Under the pieces are notes generated by a model. The model saw only the letters and a list, made by a program, of their open reading frames with translations, did no database searches and was not told the DNA's origin. The translations under genes and the position numbers were made by a program. A stretch of DNA of 30,775 nt. It comes from a virus. The DNA is taken from positions 1 to 30,775 of IMG/VR virus record IMGVR_UViG_3300009088_000005. One strand, written 5' to 3'. Of the stretch, positions 2,063 through 9,652 are shown piece after piece. Position 1 is the first letter of the stretch. Every line of letters starts with the position of its first letter.

Positions 2063-3826
2063 ATGATTGAGTCCACTTCACAAGCTGCCGAGATCCGGGC
2101 CGCGGCGTCGATCCTCCTAGAGCGTCTCCAGTTCATGCGGCAGGCGGGGATCTCGTTTAAAGGGGCACGCGATCTCTATGAAGTCCTTGGCTATGACCGA
2201 GTCATCACGACGCGGCAGTATCGCGATCGTTATGCACGTGGGGGGATTGCTGGACGGGTGGTTGATGCGCTACCGAATGCGACATGGCGCGGGGATATGG
2301 AGCTCATTGAGGATGACGATCCAAAGGTCAGCACACCGTTTGAACAAGCATGGTGTGATCTCAATACCAAGCATCAGGTCATCTCAAAGTTTTTGCGTGT
2401 TGATAAACTGGCTGGACTCAGTACGTATGCCGTGCTGCTGATTGGGGCGCCTGGTGATTTAAGCACTGAGATGCCACGTGGGAAAGAGCTGCTCTACCTT
2501 GTACCGTTTCTTGGGGGTGGTGGACCTGGCGGCGATTCGAACAGTCGAGCGTTGGCGATTGATGCGGATTGCACGATCCAAGAGTTCGATACCGATACAC
2601 AGAGTGTGCGGTTTGGTCTGCCGAAGACATATCAACTCAAACGCACTGATCTCTCCTCGCCGGCGTTTCAACGTCCTGTGCATTGGACGCGCATTGTGCA
2701 TGTTGCGGAGAATTGTTTGTCTGATGAGGTATATGGGCAGCCAGCGCTTGAGCGTGTGTGGAATCTGCTTGATGACCTCGATAAAGTAACAGGTGGTGGA
2801 GCAGAGGCGTTCTGGTTGCGCGCGAATCAAGGACTGCATCTTGATATTGACAAAGATATGTCGTTGCCTGATACCAAGGACGCGATTGAGAAACTGAAGG
2901 AGCAGGCAGAAGACTATCGACATCATTTGACGCGGTGGTTACGCACACGTGGGGTGAGTGTTGATGTACTTGGGAGTGATGTCGCGAACTTTTCGAATCC
3001 GGCTGATGCGATCCTAACGCAGATTGCTGGCGCGAAGTCCATTCCCAAGCGCATTCTGACTGGCTCTGAGATGGGTGAGTTGGCGTCATCGCAGGACCGT
3101 GACAATTGGAAGGACCAAGTCAATGGGCGACAAACCAGCTACGCTGGGCCGTATATCGTTCGGCAGCTTGTCGATCGGCTTGTGGCTTATGGGTATCTCC
3201 CCACGCCGAGTAAGGGTCCACTCGCCTATGAAGTGCGCTGGCCGCATATTCAGACACTGACTGAGCAGGAGAAGGCTGATGGAGCGACGAAGTGGGCTGC
3301 TGTGAATTCCACGGCAAAGATGACAGTCTTTACGGCAGAGGAGATTCGGGATAAATGGTACAGCATGGCTCCGGCGGACGAATCTGATACGGAGTCATAT
3401 AAAGCCGATGGTGCTAATGCGTGGGCGCTGACGAACAAGACGCAGGGTACGACGATCTTTACTCCTGATGAAATTCGGAAGACGTGGTATGGCTATCAGC
3501 CACTCACACCAGAGCAACAGGTGCCGATTGCGGCGCCAGAACGGATCTCTGGTACGACTGCGAATGAACCACGTACTGCACAGGAAGATGAGTTGTTGCA
3601 TGTGTTGGAGACAGCGATTACCTCAAATAACGTGGAGGTGATTGATAAGATCCTTGGTGTGCATCATCAGGCGCAGATTGCGCCACGTGTACCAGATCTC
3701 CGTGATGTTGAAGCACCAACTGTGATAGTCAATCCTCCTGCCGTCCGTCGAGTCAAGAAGACGTTTACCTATAGTGAGATTGAGGGGCGAATGCGTCCAA
3801 CTGGTGTGATCGAAGAGGAGCTGTAG
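2063..3826 (+). CDS. Portal protein, DUF1073 type
   Basis: This 587-residue protein forms the dodecameric ring at the unique capsid vertex through which DNA is packaged and ejected. Recognisable blocks in order are YARGGIAGRVVDALPNATWR (near residue 60), FLRVDKLAGLSTYAVLLIG (near 115), VHWTRIVHVAENCLSDEVYG (near 215), AFWLRANQGLHLDIDKD (near 250), and IPKRILTGSEMGELASSQDR (near 330). These follow the DUF1073/HI1409-type phage portal family closely. Near the C-terminus a 33-residue unit occurs twice, at residues 405-437 and 448-480. The tail beyond residue 500 is variable and acidic or polar. The ATG at 2063 follows a 58-base gap. The family call is strong. Confidence 0.88.
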   Translation: MIESTSQAAEIRAAASILLERLQFMRQAGISFKGARDLYEVLGYDRVITTRQYRDRYARGGIAGRVVDALPNATWRGDMELIEDDDPKVSTPFEQAWCDLNTKHQVISKFLRVDKLAGLSTYAVLLIGAPGDLSTEMPRGKELLYLVPFLGGGGPGGDSNSRALAIDADCTIQEFDTDTQSVRFGLPKTYQLKRTDLSSPAFQRPVHWTRIVHVAENCLSDEVYGQPALERVWNLLDDLDKVTGGGAEAFWLRANQGLHLDIDKDMSLPDTKDAIEKLKEQAEDYRHHLTRWLRTRGVSVDVLGSDVANFSNPADAILTQIAGAKSIPKRILTGSEMGELASSQDRDNWKDQVNGRQTSYAGPYIVRQLVDRLVAYGYLPTPSKGPLAYEVRWPHIQTLTEQEKADGATKWAAVNSTAKMTVFTAEEIRDKWYSMAPADESDTESYKADGANAWALTNKTQGTTIFTPDEIRKTWYGYQPLTPEQQVPIAAPERISGTTANEPRTAQEDELLHVLETAITSNNVEVIDKILGVHHQAQIAPRVPDLRDVEAPTVIVNPPAVRRVKKTFTYSEIEGRMRPTGVIEEEL

Positions 3827-5389: not shown

Positions 5390-7066
5390 ATGTCCTTACT
5401 CGACCTGCGGTCGTTAGAGACGAACTATTTTCTGACGGCTGCGGTTGGTTCCTTCCTCAAAGCGAGTCCTTCCTCCAATCTGCTGAAGGGTAGTTATCTC
5501 TCTGCTTCTGTGGGGTCGTTTGTTGAAGTCGGCAACGCGACGACTCTGCTTAAAACCAATATTCTTGTCTCTTCTGTTGGTAGTTTCCTCGAAGTTGGCA
5601 ATGCTGCACCGTTACTCGAAGGGCACCGTCTCACGTCGGCAGTCGGGAGTTTTGTCGAGACAGGGATAGCTGCGTCGTTGTTAGAAGGCCATCTCCTGAC
5701 GGCGGCTGTTGGGAGTTTTGTTGAGACTGGAAATGCCGCGCCACTATTGGAAGGCCATCGACTGACGGCAGCTGTTGGGAGCTTTGTTGAATCTGGTCTA
5801 GCAATCACTCTCCTCAAGACAAGCATTCTGGCTTCTTCTGTTGGGTCATTTGTTGAGACTGGCAACATCGCGAATCTCAATAAGGGCTACTACCTCTCTG
5901 CCACGACAGGATCATTCACAGAAACTGGCCTCGCGATTGTCCTCACTAAAACGAGCATTCTTGTATCGGCTGTTGGAAATTTTGTAGAGACCGGTGCGAG
6001 TGCTCCGTTACTCGAAGGCCATCTGCTTACGGCGGCGACTGGTGCGTACACGGAGACAGGCAGTGCCGCGTCACTTCTGACTGGCTACGTGCTGTCGAGC
6101 GTTGCTGGCACTCTCATAGAGACTGGTTCTGCTGCATCGCTCCTTGAAGGCCATCGTCTGGTTGCAGCGACAGGAACCTACATCGAGACTGGTGTTGATA
6201 CCGCGTTCCTGCGGGGCTACGCGTTAACGTGTGCAGCAGGTGCTTTTGTAGAAGTAGGAAATGTCGCAGCACTACTTGAAGGCCATCTCCTCTCAGCGGC
6301 ACTCGGTGTGTATGTCGAGAGTGGGAGTGCGGCTGGTTTGTTCGAAGGCGAGGGCCTGTTTGGGTTGGTTGGGAATTTCATTGAAACAGGGATTGCTGTT
6401 TCGCTCCGTGCTGATCGTGACCTGATTGGACTTTCTGCTGCGTATGTCGAGACTGGTGCGGATGCTTCTCTGTTAACTGGTTATTCTCTCTCTGCTACTG
6501 GGGCGATTTTCAACGAGATTGGTATCGATGCTTCGCTACTGTTCGATCGGGTACTCTCTGCAGCCGTTGGAAATTTTGTTGAGTTAGGACAGGATGCGTT
6601 CCTCGGTGCGTTCCGCATTCTGAATGCTGAGCGTGGAATCTTTGTCGAAGTTGGGCAGGGCGCACAGTTTAAACAGACGGTTGTGCAGGCGGTTGGTGGA
6701 AGACGAGCACGACGAGAACGAAAGAAACCGCTTGCCGCGCAGTATACGCTGACTGCACAGAGCGGAACGTTCTTCTCGCAAGGGTATTCCATTTCTCTCA
6801 CGAGATCCTTGGTTCTACGCGCTGGATTGTCTAGCGTAGATGTCGCTGAGATCTCTTCGGGTGTGTTCAGGACCGCTTTTAGACTTCGCGGTACTGGAAC
6901 TGAGTTTAATGCTGTTCCGCACGCGGCGGATCTCTCACGATGTGCATACCTTGCGTGTCAGAGTGGTGAGTTCAGTGTGGTCAATCTACCGAGTGTGTTG
7001 ATGAAGACTGACATCGATCTGTTTCTTGATGATGATGAGTGGCTGTTCTTACAGGAGGCGGCGTAA
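5390..7066 (+). CDS. Virion-associated protein of nineteen 22-residue repeats
   Basis: This 558-residue protein is almost wholly a tandem array. After 14 residues, nineteen uninterrupted 22-residue units follow (residues 15-432). A typical unit is LTAAVGSFVETGNAAPLLEG plus two residues. Each unit has a conserved leucine at position 1, Gly at 6, an aromatic at 8, an acidic residue at 10 and Gly at 12. Units near the middle are most alike; the ends are more diverged. The alternating beta pattern suggests a solenoid or stacked beta-hairpin fibre. A basic break (GGRRARRERKKP, about residues 436-447) precedes decayed repeats and an acidic end (DLFLDDDEWLF). Similar GSYxxxGxxAxLxxG repeats occur in phage virion proteins of unknown role. 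AGGAGG near its end serves the next gene. Confidence 0.75.
   Translation: MSLLDLRSLETNYFLTAAVGSFLKASPSSNLLKGSYLSASVGSFVEVGNATTLLKTNILVSSVGSFLEVGNAAPLLEGHRLTSAVGSFVETGIAASLLEGHLLTAAVGSFVETGNAAPLLEGHRLTAAVGSFVESGLAITLLKTSILASSVGSFVETGNIANLNKGYYLSATTGSFTETGLAIVLTKTSILVSAVGNFVETGASAPLLEGHLLTAATGAYTETGSAASLLTGYVLSSVAGTLIETGSAASLLEGHRLVAATGTYIETGVDTAFLRGYALTCAAGAFVEVGNVAALLEGHLLSAALGVYVESGSAAGLFEGEGLFGLVGNFIETGIAVSLRADRDLIGLSAAYVETGADASLLTGYSLSATGAIFNEIGIDASLLFDRVLSAAVGNFVELGQDAFLGAFRILNAERGIFVEVGQGAQFKQTVVQAVGGRRARRERKKPLAAQYTLTAQSGTFFSQGYSISLTRSLVLRAGLSSVDVAEISSGVFRTAFRLRGTGTEFNAVPHAADLSRCAYLACQSGEFSVVNLPSVLMKTDIDLFLDDDEWLFLQEAA
5432..6685 (+). repeat. Tandem array of nineteen 66-bp coding units
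   Basis: The units are exactly 66 bp each with no insertion or deletion across 1254 bp. GAAGGCCATC recurs in several units, whereas other units have diverged at synonymous sites. The array is therefore old at the DNA level, with some local homogenisation. Confidence 0.8.
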
Positions 7067-8740
7067 GTGCCTTCTTTTCCGCTCCAATCAGCAGCCGCAG
7101 CGAGAATCCTCGAGCGGCTGGTCAGACGCAGAATCAGAAATGAGGTGTCACATCGCACTGCTGTGTCGCGGGAGAATGAGCTCCACACTGTCGCGGAGGA
7201 GTTCTTTCCAAAGTTTCGCGCTGTTGTTCGAGCGGCCTTTGCACGAGGACGTTTTGCGGTGGATCATGCTGCACTTCGCAAAGCCACCACGATACATGAC
7301 GCGCAGGTGGCGATATCTCCTGCTGCGTTTGCGACACAACGATACTTACAGCGTGAGTTGCCGAAGTTGTTGCTCAACCTGGTGAAAGCTGGCGGGAACG
7401 CTGGGTTGAAACGGCTCGGCTCAGTGCGCGGCCTTCGTGCTGCGGCTGATGATGATCTCTACTCGATGCGATTCGATGTGACGAATCCCGATGTTCTTGA
7501 ATGGATCAAGGAGCACACAGCCGAACTCATAGATGGGATTACAGAAACAACTCGACAGAATATTACCGATGCGATTGTGGCAGCGTTTGAAAGTGGGACT
7601 TTGCGTGAAGCCTATGATGACATTCTTGAATTGGTTGGAGACGAAAGCCGCGCCGAGTTGATCACTCGCACTGAGTGCATGATGGCAGCGAATGAGGGGC
7701 AACGCGAATCGTGGTCGCAAGCCGAAGAGGCGGGTCTGCTGACGGGGGATGAGAAACGAGTCTGGATCGCGACGGATGACGCTTGTCCTAAATGTGAAGA
7801 ATTAGACGGACAGGAAGCGGATCTCGATGGAGTGTATCTCGGTGATGGTGAAAATGGTCCGCCCCTCCATCCGAACTCAATTGTCGCTGGTGTTTTGGTT
7901 GAGGGTAACACGATTGCGGCCACACGGATGTTATATGCGGGACAAGTCAGGGAAATCGTAATGATCAGCGGTCGAACGTTGACCATCACACCGCACCACT
8001 CGGTAGCAACCCTTCGAGGATTCATTCCTGCTCACGATGTCGAGAAAGGCGAGTATTTGTTCTCTTACAATGAGCGGATCGAACGTAGTGACCCATCTGC
8101 CGAGTCCTTTTATCCTGCGGTGTCTGTTTTCTTTTCTCCACAAGAGAATCAGGACGGACCAACCACTATCGAGCAGGTCTTTCATTCGTTGAAACTCACT
8201 GGGAAACTTGTCGTTGCCGAGCGGTTTGGCGACGAGTTCCACGGCGACGCGGCGTATGGGAATGGCGATATCGACATTGTATATGCCGATGTCGAATTGG
8301 GGAATCGCGTCGAGGCCACAGTTGAGGATCAGCGCGAGGGTCTCGTGCTCGAATCCTCCGACCTTCTTGTTTCTGGATTGCGCAACGCGCTCCTTGTGCA
8401 ACTGGCTGCTCGATTGACCAAGCCTGCCAGCGTTATAGGCTTGCGGCCCGTCACGCAGCCAACGAAGACGTCCCGCATCGGATATACCGCGTATCTCGAT
8501 GCCGTGCTGTTCGAAATGGCTCGTCATTTTAACGCGAGAGATGCCAGCTTCTGCCGCGAGCTTGTAGAGCGGCTCGCCGGCTTTATAACGCAAGACGAAG
8601 TGATCGAAGTTCGGAATCGGGACTATTTTGAACATGTCTATGATCTTAACACGATTAGCGGGGTTATTGTCGCGAACGGTTTCATAATTTCGAACTGTCG
8701 CTGTACTGAAGGTATCGTGGCCGGACCGCCAGAGGACTGA
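7067..8740 (+). CDS. MuF-like minor head protein interrupted by an intein
   Basis: The 557-residue precursor comprises a MuF/SPP1 gp7-like head morphogenesis protein (residues 1-270 and 544-557) and a 273-residue intein (271-543). The extein has the helical portal-associated N-terminus, TRTECMMAANEGQRESW near residue 205, and the metal-site-like C-terminus: C240PKC243, then HPN at 268-270 and CRC after the intein. Ligation would give the family hallmark HPNCRC and a 284-residue mature protein, a normal MuF length. MuF proteins sit at the portal vertex inside the head and aid assembly or are ejected. The GTG start at 7067 has AGGAGG 8 bases upstream and touches the previous stop. The whole intein is overlapped by an antisense gene (7931-8635). 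Confidence 0.85.
   Translation: MPSFPLQSAAAARILERLVRRRIRNEVSHRTAVSRENELHTVAEEFFPKFRAVVRAAFARGRFAVDHAALRKATTIHDAQVAISPAAFATQRYLQRELPKLLLNLVKAGGNAGLKRLGSVRGLRAAADDDLYSMRFDVTNPDVLEWIKEHTAELIDGITETTRQNITDAIVAAFESGTLREAYDDILELVGDESRAELITRTECMMAANEGQRESWSQAEEAGLLTGDEKRVWIATDDACPKCEELDGQEADLDGVYLGDGENGPPLHPNSIVAGVLVEGNTIAATRMLYAGQVREIVMISGRTLTITPHHSVATLRGFIPAHDVEKGEYLFSYNERIERSDPSAESFYPAVSVFFSPQENQDGPTTIEQVFHSLKLTGKLVVAERFGDEFHGDAAYGNGDIDIVYADVELGNRVEATVEDQREGLVLESSDLLVSGLRNALLVQLAARLTKPASVIGLRPVTQPTKTSRIGYTAYLDAVLFEMARHFNARDASFCRELVERLAGFITQDEVIEVRNRDYFEHVYDLNTISGVIVANGFIISNCRCTEGIVAGPPED
7877..8695 (+). mobile_element. Intein (protein-splicing element) in the MuF gene
   Basis: The element begins with Ser271, directly after HPN, and ends with Asn543, directly before the +1 nucleophile Cys544 of CRC. 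Seen in order are block A (SIVAGVLVEGNTIAATR), the YAGQVREI strand, block B with the TxxH pair Thr308/His311 (LTITPHHSVAT), the central MuF-intein phrase FHGD (391-394) followed by GDIDIVYAD, block F (VYDLN at 524-528) and block G (ANGFIISN then C). Ser replaces the more common Cys at position 1, and Ser replaces the common penultimate His; both changes are known in active inteins. No LAGLIDADG or HNH domain is present in the sense frame. The expected product is an excised 273-residue intein. Confidence 0.85.
7931..8635 (-). CDS. Antisense homing-type endonuclease (HTH + Vsr-like)
   Basis: This 234-residue protein is read entirely from the strand opposite the intein. Residues 9-50 form a helix-turn-helix (LRYKAGEPLYKLAAEAGISR, then HGIEIRG), followed by SDAGRLRW. 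A nuclease-like core has Glu96/Glu98 (GGFEHETLALIL), Asp122 in QFDIGIYNVDIAIP, Glu133 in RVAVEL, and LLDSGWSVLIL. The C-terminal tail is AFLDIVSRNESSKGCYRVVR plus CDGQ. This order matches, from memory, a widespread phage family of free-standing HTH plus Vsr/PD-(D/E)XK-like nucleases considered to be homing endonucleases. The usual WH...H segment after the core Glu is absent here (VAKPLGNDKF), so activity is uncertain. No strong ribosome site or promoter is visible upstream of the ATG. Its codons align exactly with the sense codons (register codon-on-codon). Confidence 0.7.
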   Translation of the reverse strand: MFKIVPIPNFDHFVLRYKAGEPLYKLAAEAGISRVKMTSHFEQHGIEIRGISDAGRLRWLRDGPQAYNAGRLGQSSSQLHKERVAQSRNKKVGGFEHETLALILNCGLDAIPQFDIGIYNVDIAIPIRRVAVELVAKPLGNDKFPSEFQRMKDLLDSGWSVLILLWRKENRHRRIKGLGRWVTTFDPLIVREQILAFLDIVSRNESSKGCYRVVRCDGQRSTADHYDFPDLSRI

Positions 8741-8782: not shown

Positions 8783-9652
8783 ATGTCACTTCTTCGAGCT
8801 GACGCACGTGCGATCCCGTTGTGTGATGGTTGTGTGCAGACTGTTGTAACGAGTCCTCCGTATTGGGGGCTTAGAGACTATGAACTTGGTGCGGCAGGAA
8901 TTGGAATGGAGCCGACATTAGAGGTATATGTCGCTGCATTGGTTAATGCTTTTCGTGAGATCTGGCGAGTGCTCCGTGATGATGGAACTGTGTGGGTGAA
9001 TCTCGGTGATTGTTATGCAACTTGTATTGACAAAGTTGGCAAGTTGAAGCCTAAAAATTTAGTTGGTCTGCCTTGGCGCGTTGCCCTCGCGTTACAAACT
9101 GATGGCTGGTATCTTCGTTCCGACATTATTTGGGCGAAACTTACATGTATGCCGGAGCCAGTCACGGATCGGCCGACGAAGAGTCATGAGTATATATTCT
9201 TAATGGCGAAGTCTGAACGGTATTACTACGATGGCGATGCGATTGCCGAAACAACGACAGAAACAAGTGGCTGGTCGAGACAGCGGATGCGTGGTTTAAA
9301 CACATGGGAATACAACAATACAGCCGCGCGAATTGCCGCAACAGGACAGAGAGTTGAATCCAGTACATTTGGTACATTTGGAAAGCGCAACAAGCGCAGT
9401 GTTTGGACGATCAATACTGAGTTCAACCGTGGCGCGCACTTCGCAGTTTTTCCCGAGGCGCTCGTTGAACCGTGCATTCTCGCTGGCGCTCCGGTTGGCG
9501 GCCTCGTGTTCGATCCCTTTATCGGCTCTGGTACGGTGGGCGCAGTTGCCGAACGTCTCAGTCGTCGATGGGTCGGCATCGACCTGAGTTATCAGGATCT
9601 TGCTATTGAGCGTACAGCGCAACGCGGTTTTATGTTTGATACAGCTGTTTAG
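8783..9652 (+). CDS. DNA methyltransferase (N4-cytosine/N6-adenine, beta-class order)
   Basis: This 289-residue protein transfers a methyl group from S-adenosylmethionine to an exocyclic amine of DNA. The catalytic motif IV is TSPPYWGLRDY (Ser24-Pro-Pro-Tyr-Trp), and the SAM-binding motif I is DPFIGSGTVG starting at Asp244, followed by GIDLS. Catalytic motif before SAM motif is the beta-class permutation; SPPY rather than DPPY leans towards N4-cytosine, although this family also contains adenine enzymes. The phrases LVGLPWRVALALQTDGWYLR and DRPTKSHEYIFLMAKS are typical of phage and host versions. No restriction enzyme is adjacent, so it is an orphan methylase, perhaps protecting phage DNA. 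It stands between MuF and capsid protease, an unusual position in the head module. Confidence 0.88.
   Translation: MSLLRADARAIPLCDGCVQTVVTSPPYWGLRDYELGAAGIGMEPTLEVYVAALVNAFREIWRVLRDDGTVWVNLGDCYATCIDKVGKLKPKNLVGLPWRVALALQTDGWYLRSDIIWAKLTCMPEPVTDRPTKSHEYIFLMAKSERYYYDGDAIAETTTETSGWSRQRMRGLNTWEYNNTAARIAATGQRVESSTFGTFGKRNKRSVWTINTEFNRGAHFAVFPEALVEPCILAGAPVGGLVFDPFIGSGTVGAVAERLSRRWVGIDLSYQDLAIERTAQRGFMFDTAV

Follow-up and report, generated by a model that had tools for sequence, protein, structure and literature searches.

An intein is generally regarded as a single protein to which a nuclease domain may or may not be added, and loss of the endonuclease without loss of the intein is the usual end of the homing cycle. 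In large inteins of the PI-PkoII (2cw7) and PI-PfuI (1dq3) type, the nuclease is a sense-frame domain of the spliced protein. The locus considered here lies on a 30,775-nucleotide (nt) virus contig, IMG/VR record IMGVR_UViG_3300009088_000005, the whole of which is referred to as the window. Its MuF-type head morphogenesis gene contains a predicted intein that shares with the large inteins the Hint domain, blocks A, B, F and G and a mobility nuclease, and an AlphaFold2 (AF2) model of the sense protein matches their splicing domains. In contrast to those inteins, however, the putative nuclease has a gene of its own, which uses the same codons but is read from the other strand.

The core fold of the antisense protein is that of I-Bth0305I (3r3p; Z 11.8, profile E 1.3e-4), and endonucleases of that type are associated with phage inteins. 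This Vsr-like or I-Bth0305I class of homing endonucleases, also known by the motif name EDxHD, was reportedly first described by Dassa in 2009 together with "fractured genes" and split inteins, the endonuclease lying between two split intein halves. By that account the present arrangement differs, as the nuclease gene overlaps an intein that is not split.

Nucleases in unusual frames have been described elsewhere. The ShiLan domain is a hidden out-of-frame HNH insertion in a phage methylase, without a splicing domain (PMC11855218). There too an insertion encodes a homing-type nuclease out of frame with a host frame that stays open, whereas the gene described here is antisense and of Vsr type and lies in a recognizable intein with embedded start signals. 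Antisense homing endonuclease genes of the I-DsqI kind are found in nuclear group I introns, where they are expressed and active (PMC9548176). Both systems place a homing endonuclease antisense within a self-splicing element, but the ribosomal DNA intron is an RNA element with no sense reading frame to keep open, while here both strands are protein-coding. Among the matches listed by full-text literature searches, judged by titles and abstract openings, none described an antisense endonuclease in an intein, which is not proof of absence. On the subject of overlapping frames in actinobacteriophages, PMC11855218 refers to a preprint of 2025 about "non-canonical" phage inteins (10.1101/2025.01.02.630785); judged from its title and citation context, this work may overlap with the present case.

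The main features of the locus are as follows (positions in the window; a slash marks a splice junction).

7067-8740, plus strand: MuF-type head morphogenesis gene with intein, 557 amino acids (PF04233, PF14890, phrog_15127)
7877-8695, plus strand: predicted intein, 273 codons, Ser271 to Asn543 followed by Cys+1 (HPN/S...IISN/CRC); AF2 model resembles RecA and DnaB mini-inteins
7931-8635, minus strand: putative antisense Vsr-like homing endonuclease gene, protein P0001, 234 amino acids, ATG at 8633-8635 (homologues, profile, fold)
8507-8608, minus strand: predicted helix-turn-helix of the nuclease, residues 10-43 (AF2 confidence 96-97; helix-turn-helix Pfam matches among members)
8027-8359, minus strand: predicted nuclease core of the Vsr/I-Bth0305I fold, residues 93-203 (profile and structure matches)
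8348-8350, minus strand: Glu96, invariant; sense codon CTC
8270-8272, minus strand: Asp122, invariant; sense codon ATC
8237-8239, minus strand: Glu133, near-invariant; sense codon TTC, the Phe of sense FHGD
8234-8248, plus strand: sense EFHGD motif, which shares its DNA with antisense V130-A131-V132-E133; the wobble bases of antisense codons 129, 130 and 132 are frozen
7982-8005, plus strand: intein block B (TITPHHSV), opposite the C-terminal tail of the nuclease (YRVVR)
8633-8650, plus strand: intein block F (HVYDLN); on the other strand its His codon, CAT, reads as the nuclease ATG, and the Shine-Dalgarno region, weak in the window, lies there as well
8684-8698, plus strand: intein C-terminus and junction (IISN/C), block G; in relatives the -10 region for the antisense gene falls here, a signal that the window has in weak form

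The antisense protein

The original prediction, made from the window alone, held that a 234-residue minus-strand frame inside the MuF intein reads as a homing-type nuclease with a helix-turn-helix, Glu96/98, Asp122 and Glu133. The open reading frame (ORF) is as proposed: it begins with ATG, contains no internal stop, lies wholly inside 7877-8695 and is codon-aligned with the intein frame. The named residues are all present, and so, as AF2 helices, is the helix-turn-helix.

A tblastn search with the antisense protein matched 113 phage records at E<=1, most strongly Cronobacter phage ES2 (7e-21). Each of the first ten loci, eight fetched by the nuclease and two by the sense protein, has a long open antisense frame of 241-360 codons in a MuF intein; the frame was thus found, as expected, in the related MuF inteins examined. 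In an alignment of 51 members, E96, G117, Y119, N120, D122 and R150 are invariant and A131, V132 and E133 are at least 90% conserved. A profile of the family matches 3hrl (2e-7) and the Vsr-like homing endonuclease I-Bth0305I (3r3p, 1.3e-4) in the PDB, and Vsr itself (1cw0) at 0.24 only. PF18741 (Vsr-like restriction endonuclease, MTES_1575) matches 47 of the 51 members at E<=0.05, with a best value of 1.5e-9; DUF559 matches 18 and Vsr 2, alongside many helix-turn-helix families. The proposed kinship with Vsr/DUF559-like enzymes is supported by these family matches, while the window protein taken alone is weak in Pfam. P0001 alone had no match in PHROGs or NCBIfam, nor by phmmer against the PDB.

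AF2 folds the antisense protein with a mean confidence (predicted local distance difference test, pLDDT) of 82.9, reaching 96-97 in the helix-turn-helix (helices at residues 10-18, 23-30 and 34-43) and about 75-96 over residues 93-165. Re-examination by VIA-align, limited to the Foldseek matches, gave Z 12.3 for 1cw0 (root-mean-square deviation, rmsd, 2.7 over 114 residues), 11.8 for 1vsr, 11.8 for 3r3p_A (rmsd 3.2, 93 residues) and 11.2 for 3hrl (rmsd 1.8, 89 residues), so that the check by structure prediction came out in favor: the fold is predicted with confidence and resembles Vsr and I-Bth0305I at Z 11-12. Profile and model together support the view that the antisense frame encodes a helix-turn-helix joined to a Vsr/I-Bth0305I-fold protein, predicted to act as a nuclease. 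Longer homologues (L005-L009, L060, L081 and others) carry extra N-terminal sequence, in several reading as a second helix-turn-helix; a start codon opposite block F persists in most of them and is absent in L009.

Selection on both strands

Length by itself says little about a codon-aligned antisense frame, as the original prediction had cautioned: the window holds several long antisense ORFs, and a 235-codon stretch free of TTA, CTA and TCA has P ~0.0025, given their usage in nine other window genes or gene parts (133/5,282 codons). Comparative evidence is the strong part. Nuclease relatives were gathered at 199 loci, a set of 92 (L001, L003-L010, L013-L095) and a set of 107 (L096-L202), with several contigs occurring twice. 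The sense frame opposite the nuclease is stop-free in 198 (92/92 and 106/107), the exception, L199, being a free-standing nuclease gene adjoining an intein-less MuF gene. The nuclease frame is also stop-free in 198 (91/92 and 107/107), and the remaining two minus-strand frames each hold at least two stops. Clustering by 4-mers reduced the 198 sense-open loci to 140, which were used to count stop avoidance. Among the Leu and Ser codons of the nuclease, TTA, CTA and TCA are found 0 times in 4,099 against 508 expected from the same genes, and among those of the sense frame 2 times in 5,312 against 675. Since these codons are depleted in both frames, each strand avoids the stops of the other. A chance ORF is rejected on the open-frame odds and this reciprocal avoidance.

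The pattern of substitution separates the two strands. Because the codons of the two strands are aligned, the antisense wobble base falls at sense position 1. Within the nuclease gene, changes at sense codon positions 1/2/3 number 538/200/349, as opposed to 463/378/864 in the N-side part of these ORFs (chi2 150, P 3e-33), in a pooled test of seven pairs, one from each of seven of the eight clusters (L069/L071, with 2/2/0 changes inside, was excluded). For L015 versus L018 the changes are 69/16/31 within the nuclease, where identity is 0.83 antisense and 0.66 sense, and 77/62/184 on the N-side, where it is 0.29 antisense and 0.63 sense. Across relatives, nuclease identity is at least intein identity inside the frame, and the flanks are reversed. 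At the predicted active site, the E96 codon is GAA or GAG in 51/51 members, giving Phe or Leu on the sense strand, and that of D122 is GAC or GAT, giving Val or Ile.

The association also appears when the search starts from the other gene. A search from the sense splicing block A-B alone found the nuclease antisense in the same register at 80 of 80 loci. These were the 80 top-ranking of 580, and nuclease-bearing inteins had supplied the query. The nuclease is full and open in 72, has one stop in the hidden Markov model span in five and is cut by a contig end in three. The five one-stop loci sit on contigs shared with L095/L124, L063/L193, L127 and L142, where the nuclease matches are stop-free. 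Taken together, the codon-level comparison called for at the outset indicates constraint on both strands and supports the interpretation that the antisense frame is under purifying selection as a real second gene, and not a shadow of the sense gene.

The sense gene and its intein

In the window the MuF protein matches phrog_15127 at 8.8e-28, PF04233 at 3.6e-6 (28.1 bits, slightly below the cut-off of 29.6) and PF14890, Intein_splicing, at 1.1e-4 (22.4 bits, below 35.8). The residues expected for splicing are present (S271, T308-x-x-H311, N543 and C544); among 56 sense proteins, H311, N543 and C544 are invariant and T308 is at least 90% conserved. In a Pfam scan of the window protein and 55 of the 106 sense proteins listed in the stop-avoidance analysis, Intein_splicing matches 49 and Phage_Mu_F 32. 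The splicing parts are modeled by AF2 at pLDDT ~88-97 as a Hint fold, with Z 11.9 to 5i0a and 6frh (the RecA and DnaB mini-inteins). Sense-model residues 146-223, which face about nuclease residues 36-113, have pLDDT <50 and are predicted to be unstructured. These residues and this predicted fold argue that the window element is an intein, which would be expected to splice.

Start signals within the splicing motifs

Antisense fourfold wobble bases are mostly free (median chi2/n 0.09 over 155 columns, with the window included and L001 and L048 excluded). The 18 most frozen wobble columns are concentrated where the sense protein carries conserved motifs: 13 in the C-terminal tail of the nuclease (YxVIRG), facing intein block A/B, and 3 at sense HGDG, facing the active-site V-A-V-E, with 2 elsewhere (P0001 157 and 190). 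The YRVV tail, initially read as a nuclease signature, has to be given up as independent evidence, since it faces block B and the intein dictates its wobble bases. At P0001 position 129 it is the antisense residue that changes (Pro 84, Ser 24, Arg 10), whereas sense Gly (114) or Ala (17) is kept (n=139), which points to selection on the sense protein as well at this site. The sense FHGDG (window 8234-8248 and relatives) is conserved at the protein level, and AF2 places it in a small extra element, sense-model residues 100-141; this conserved motif must be read on both strands.

Block F was located in 131 of the 140 clustered loci, and start signals were compared in these with recodings that used synonymous codons of the same gene. 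The nuclease begins opposite the His codon of block F: 80 of the 131 loci have CAT there and hence an ATG start, and 18 have CAC and hence GTG; the choice of CAT in 80 of 98 exceeds the 39.8 expected (P 1.6e-16). Where block F has a Leu codon (125 loci), it is CTC in 88, compared with a background of 29%, a preference that yields a Shine-Dalgarno sequence on the other strand, typically 7 nt upstream of the nuclease start. Shine-Dalgarno sequences are present in 68/131 (23.9 expected), extended -10 elements in 44/131 (10.0 expected) and -10 boxes in 90/131 (39.4 expected). In 52 of these 90 loci the box has the same spacing of 45 nt to the start and faces block G. An earlier -10 control by plain shuffles, on 126 loci, gave 86 against 26.4. 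A His before VYDL was considered as a trait peculiar to this intein family and dropped, for the MjaKlbA intein (2jmz) has GHIYDL; only the codon choice is informative. Across relatives, the codons of blocks G and F thus appear to supply the -10 box, the Shine-Dalgarno sequence and the start codon of the antisense gene, signals that in the window are weak except for the start.

Mobility and spread

In Guernseyvirinae, an 816-nt intein is present (6 genes) or absent (3 genes) exactly at HPN^C, agreeing to the codon. Between LSPA1 and vB_StyS-sam the inteins share 97% identity, whereas the 600 nt of MuF upstream share 67%, a disparity that implies horizontal transfer; the 280 nt on the C-side are 93% identical. 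The free-standing gene of L199 (2318-3178, plus strand), opposite which the sense frame has five stops, is convergent with an intein-less MuF gene (3116-3649, minus strand, its 5' end cut by the contig end) and overlaps the last 63 nt of MuF. Between its end and the +1 Cys codon of the empty HPG^C site 15 nt remain. It is a candidate for either an ancestor-like stage or a later escape.

Around the Guernseyvirus site, the empty alleles L209, L210 and L212 read CGG-TCG or CGA-AGT directly after it; five of the six filled alleles (L010, L011, L012, L206, L207, L211) read CG[CT]-TC[AC] and that of Pantoea AH01 reads CGG-TCG. The first 60 nt after the site are often less alike than sequence further downstream. 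These differences possibly represent resistant target variants.

Relatives occur on contigs labeled Micromonospora, Lamprocystis, Ornatilinea, Scytonema, Henriciella, Flavonifractor and others, and the fixed register is kept in phage records and in contigs labeled Proteobacteria, Actinobacteria, Chloroflexi, Firmicutes and others. The arrangement first proposed for the window, an intein with its nuclease antisense, is borne out, but it is not unique to it: the antisense-nuclease intein is a widespread class in very different phages. An antisense endonuclease is named nowhere among the features of the 14 annotated phage records with the intein, so that the gene is missing from their annotation; the Snoke record names the intein, and that of vB_StyS-sam has a partial antisense hypothetical ORF.

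Proposed mechanism and alternative explanations

The locus is best read as a mobile intein whose homing endonuclease is a separate antisense gene overlapping it codon for codon, an interpretation to which we assign a probability of roughly 0.88. Sequence comparison shows both genes, dual selection, a fixed register and family start signals, together with presence or absence and transfer in relatives; antisense expression, cleavage, splicing and homing are what we infer from these. In the proposed cycle, the sense strand would yield a MuF precursor from which the intein excises itself, the stretch opposed to the nuclease leaving inside the excised intein. The antisense strand would be expressed from its own promoter and ribosome-binding site, within the codons of blocks G and F, to give the helix-turn-helix and Vsr-like nuclease. 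During co-infection this enzyme may cut intein-less MuF alleles at HPN^C, and repair of the cut allele would copy the intein together with the nuclease.

A single piece of DNA here specifies two proteins that are unrelated to each other, one per strand. It is a clear example from nature of antisense dual coding on an extensive scale, and selection can be measured on either strand. Other inteins often lose their nuclease. Interlocking would make such loss harder and may explain why the nuclease is found in each of the best 80 of 580 splicing-block loci. The broader proposition is that phage inteins include a large and ancient class of mobile elements that are dual-coded throughout, with an independently expressed antisense nuclease whose start signals are written into the splicing motifs, and with endonuclease loss thereby harder; it is probable, if less firmly held.

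Several observations weigh against this interpretation. The window protein alone reaches PF18741 only at E 0.013 (16 bits, below the curated cut-off of 38.2), and its best Foldseek E in the PDB is 9e-3. The locus counts come from searches seeded with this nuclease and intein family, and the loci used for stop avoidance were preselected as sense-open, so the zero count is partly by choice. A start codon opposite block F is as frequent as the residues predict (100 against 98.7 of 131). The window has its ATG but a weak Shine-Dalgarno sequence (AAGATC) and a weak -10, and a promoter and terminator scan of the window found none. At L048 (2501-3145), the nuclease frame has two stops inside an open sense intein, as in a decaying endonuclease.

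The last two points bear on the alternative that survives best, although it is unlikely: that the window nuclease is real but decayed or silent, a homing fossil kept open by sense constraint alone. Besides the weak start signals and the decay seen in one relative, it draws on the finding of an identical copy in one further contig (L001 and L073 are the same contig). Against it, the window ORF is full length with its invariant residues intact, and sense constraint alone does not preserve the catalytic codons. Somewhat less probable again is a role for the enzyme in serving the phage otherwise, for example in competitor exclusion or recombination, with homing secondary. Competition between phages can involve nucleases linked to introns or inteins, and the constancy of the gene at all 80 splicing-block loci, taken as the best of 580, would fit such a role; yet intein and nuclease are exactly present or absent together at one site and have moved between diverged genes, and the L199 copy stops 15 nt from the +1 Cys codon of its empty target site. 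That the nuclease is a mirror artifact, a conserved sense intein without TTA, CTA or TCA making its codon-aligned complement look protein-like and conserved, is rejected as scarcely credible: the alignment of the frames, the other long antisense ORFs of the window and the partial dictation of the YxVIRG tail and VAVE by conserved sense TPNHP..T and FHGD speak for it, but it is contradicted by the codon-position test, with changes falling on the antisense wobble base and antisense identity at least equal to sense within the frame, and by the catalytic codons, where sense residues drift (Leu/Phe, Val/Ile) and the antisense residue is constant, as well as by the predicted Vsr fold of the antisense product, the predicted disorder of the sense stretch facing about nuclease residues 36-113 and the free-standing copy in L199 without a sense frame.

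Neighboring genes

The MuF gene with its antisense nuclease stands in a phage head cluster with a portal gene upstream (2063-3826). Between the portal region and MuF lies a 558-amino-acid ORF (5390-7066) with a degenerate repeat of ~22 residues (66-nt unit, 5618-5787), for which no Pfam match was found. Directly downstream of MuF, and within the head gene cluster, 8783-9652 encodes an N6/N4 DNA methylase (PF01555, 6.6e-45).

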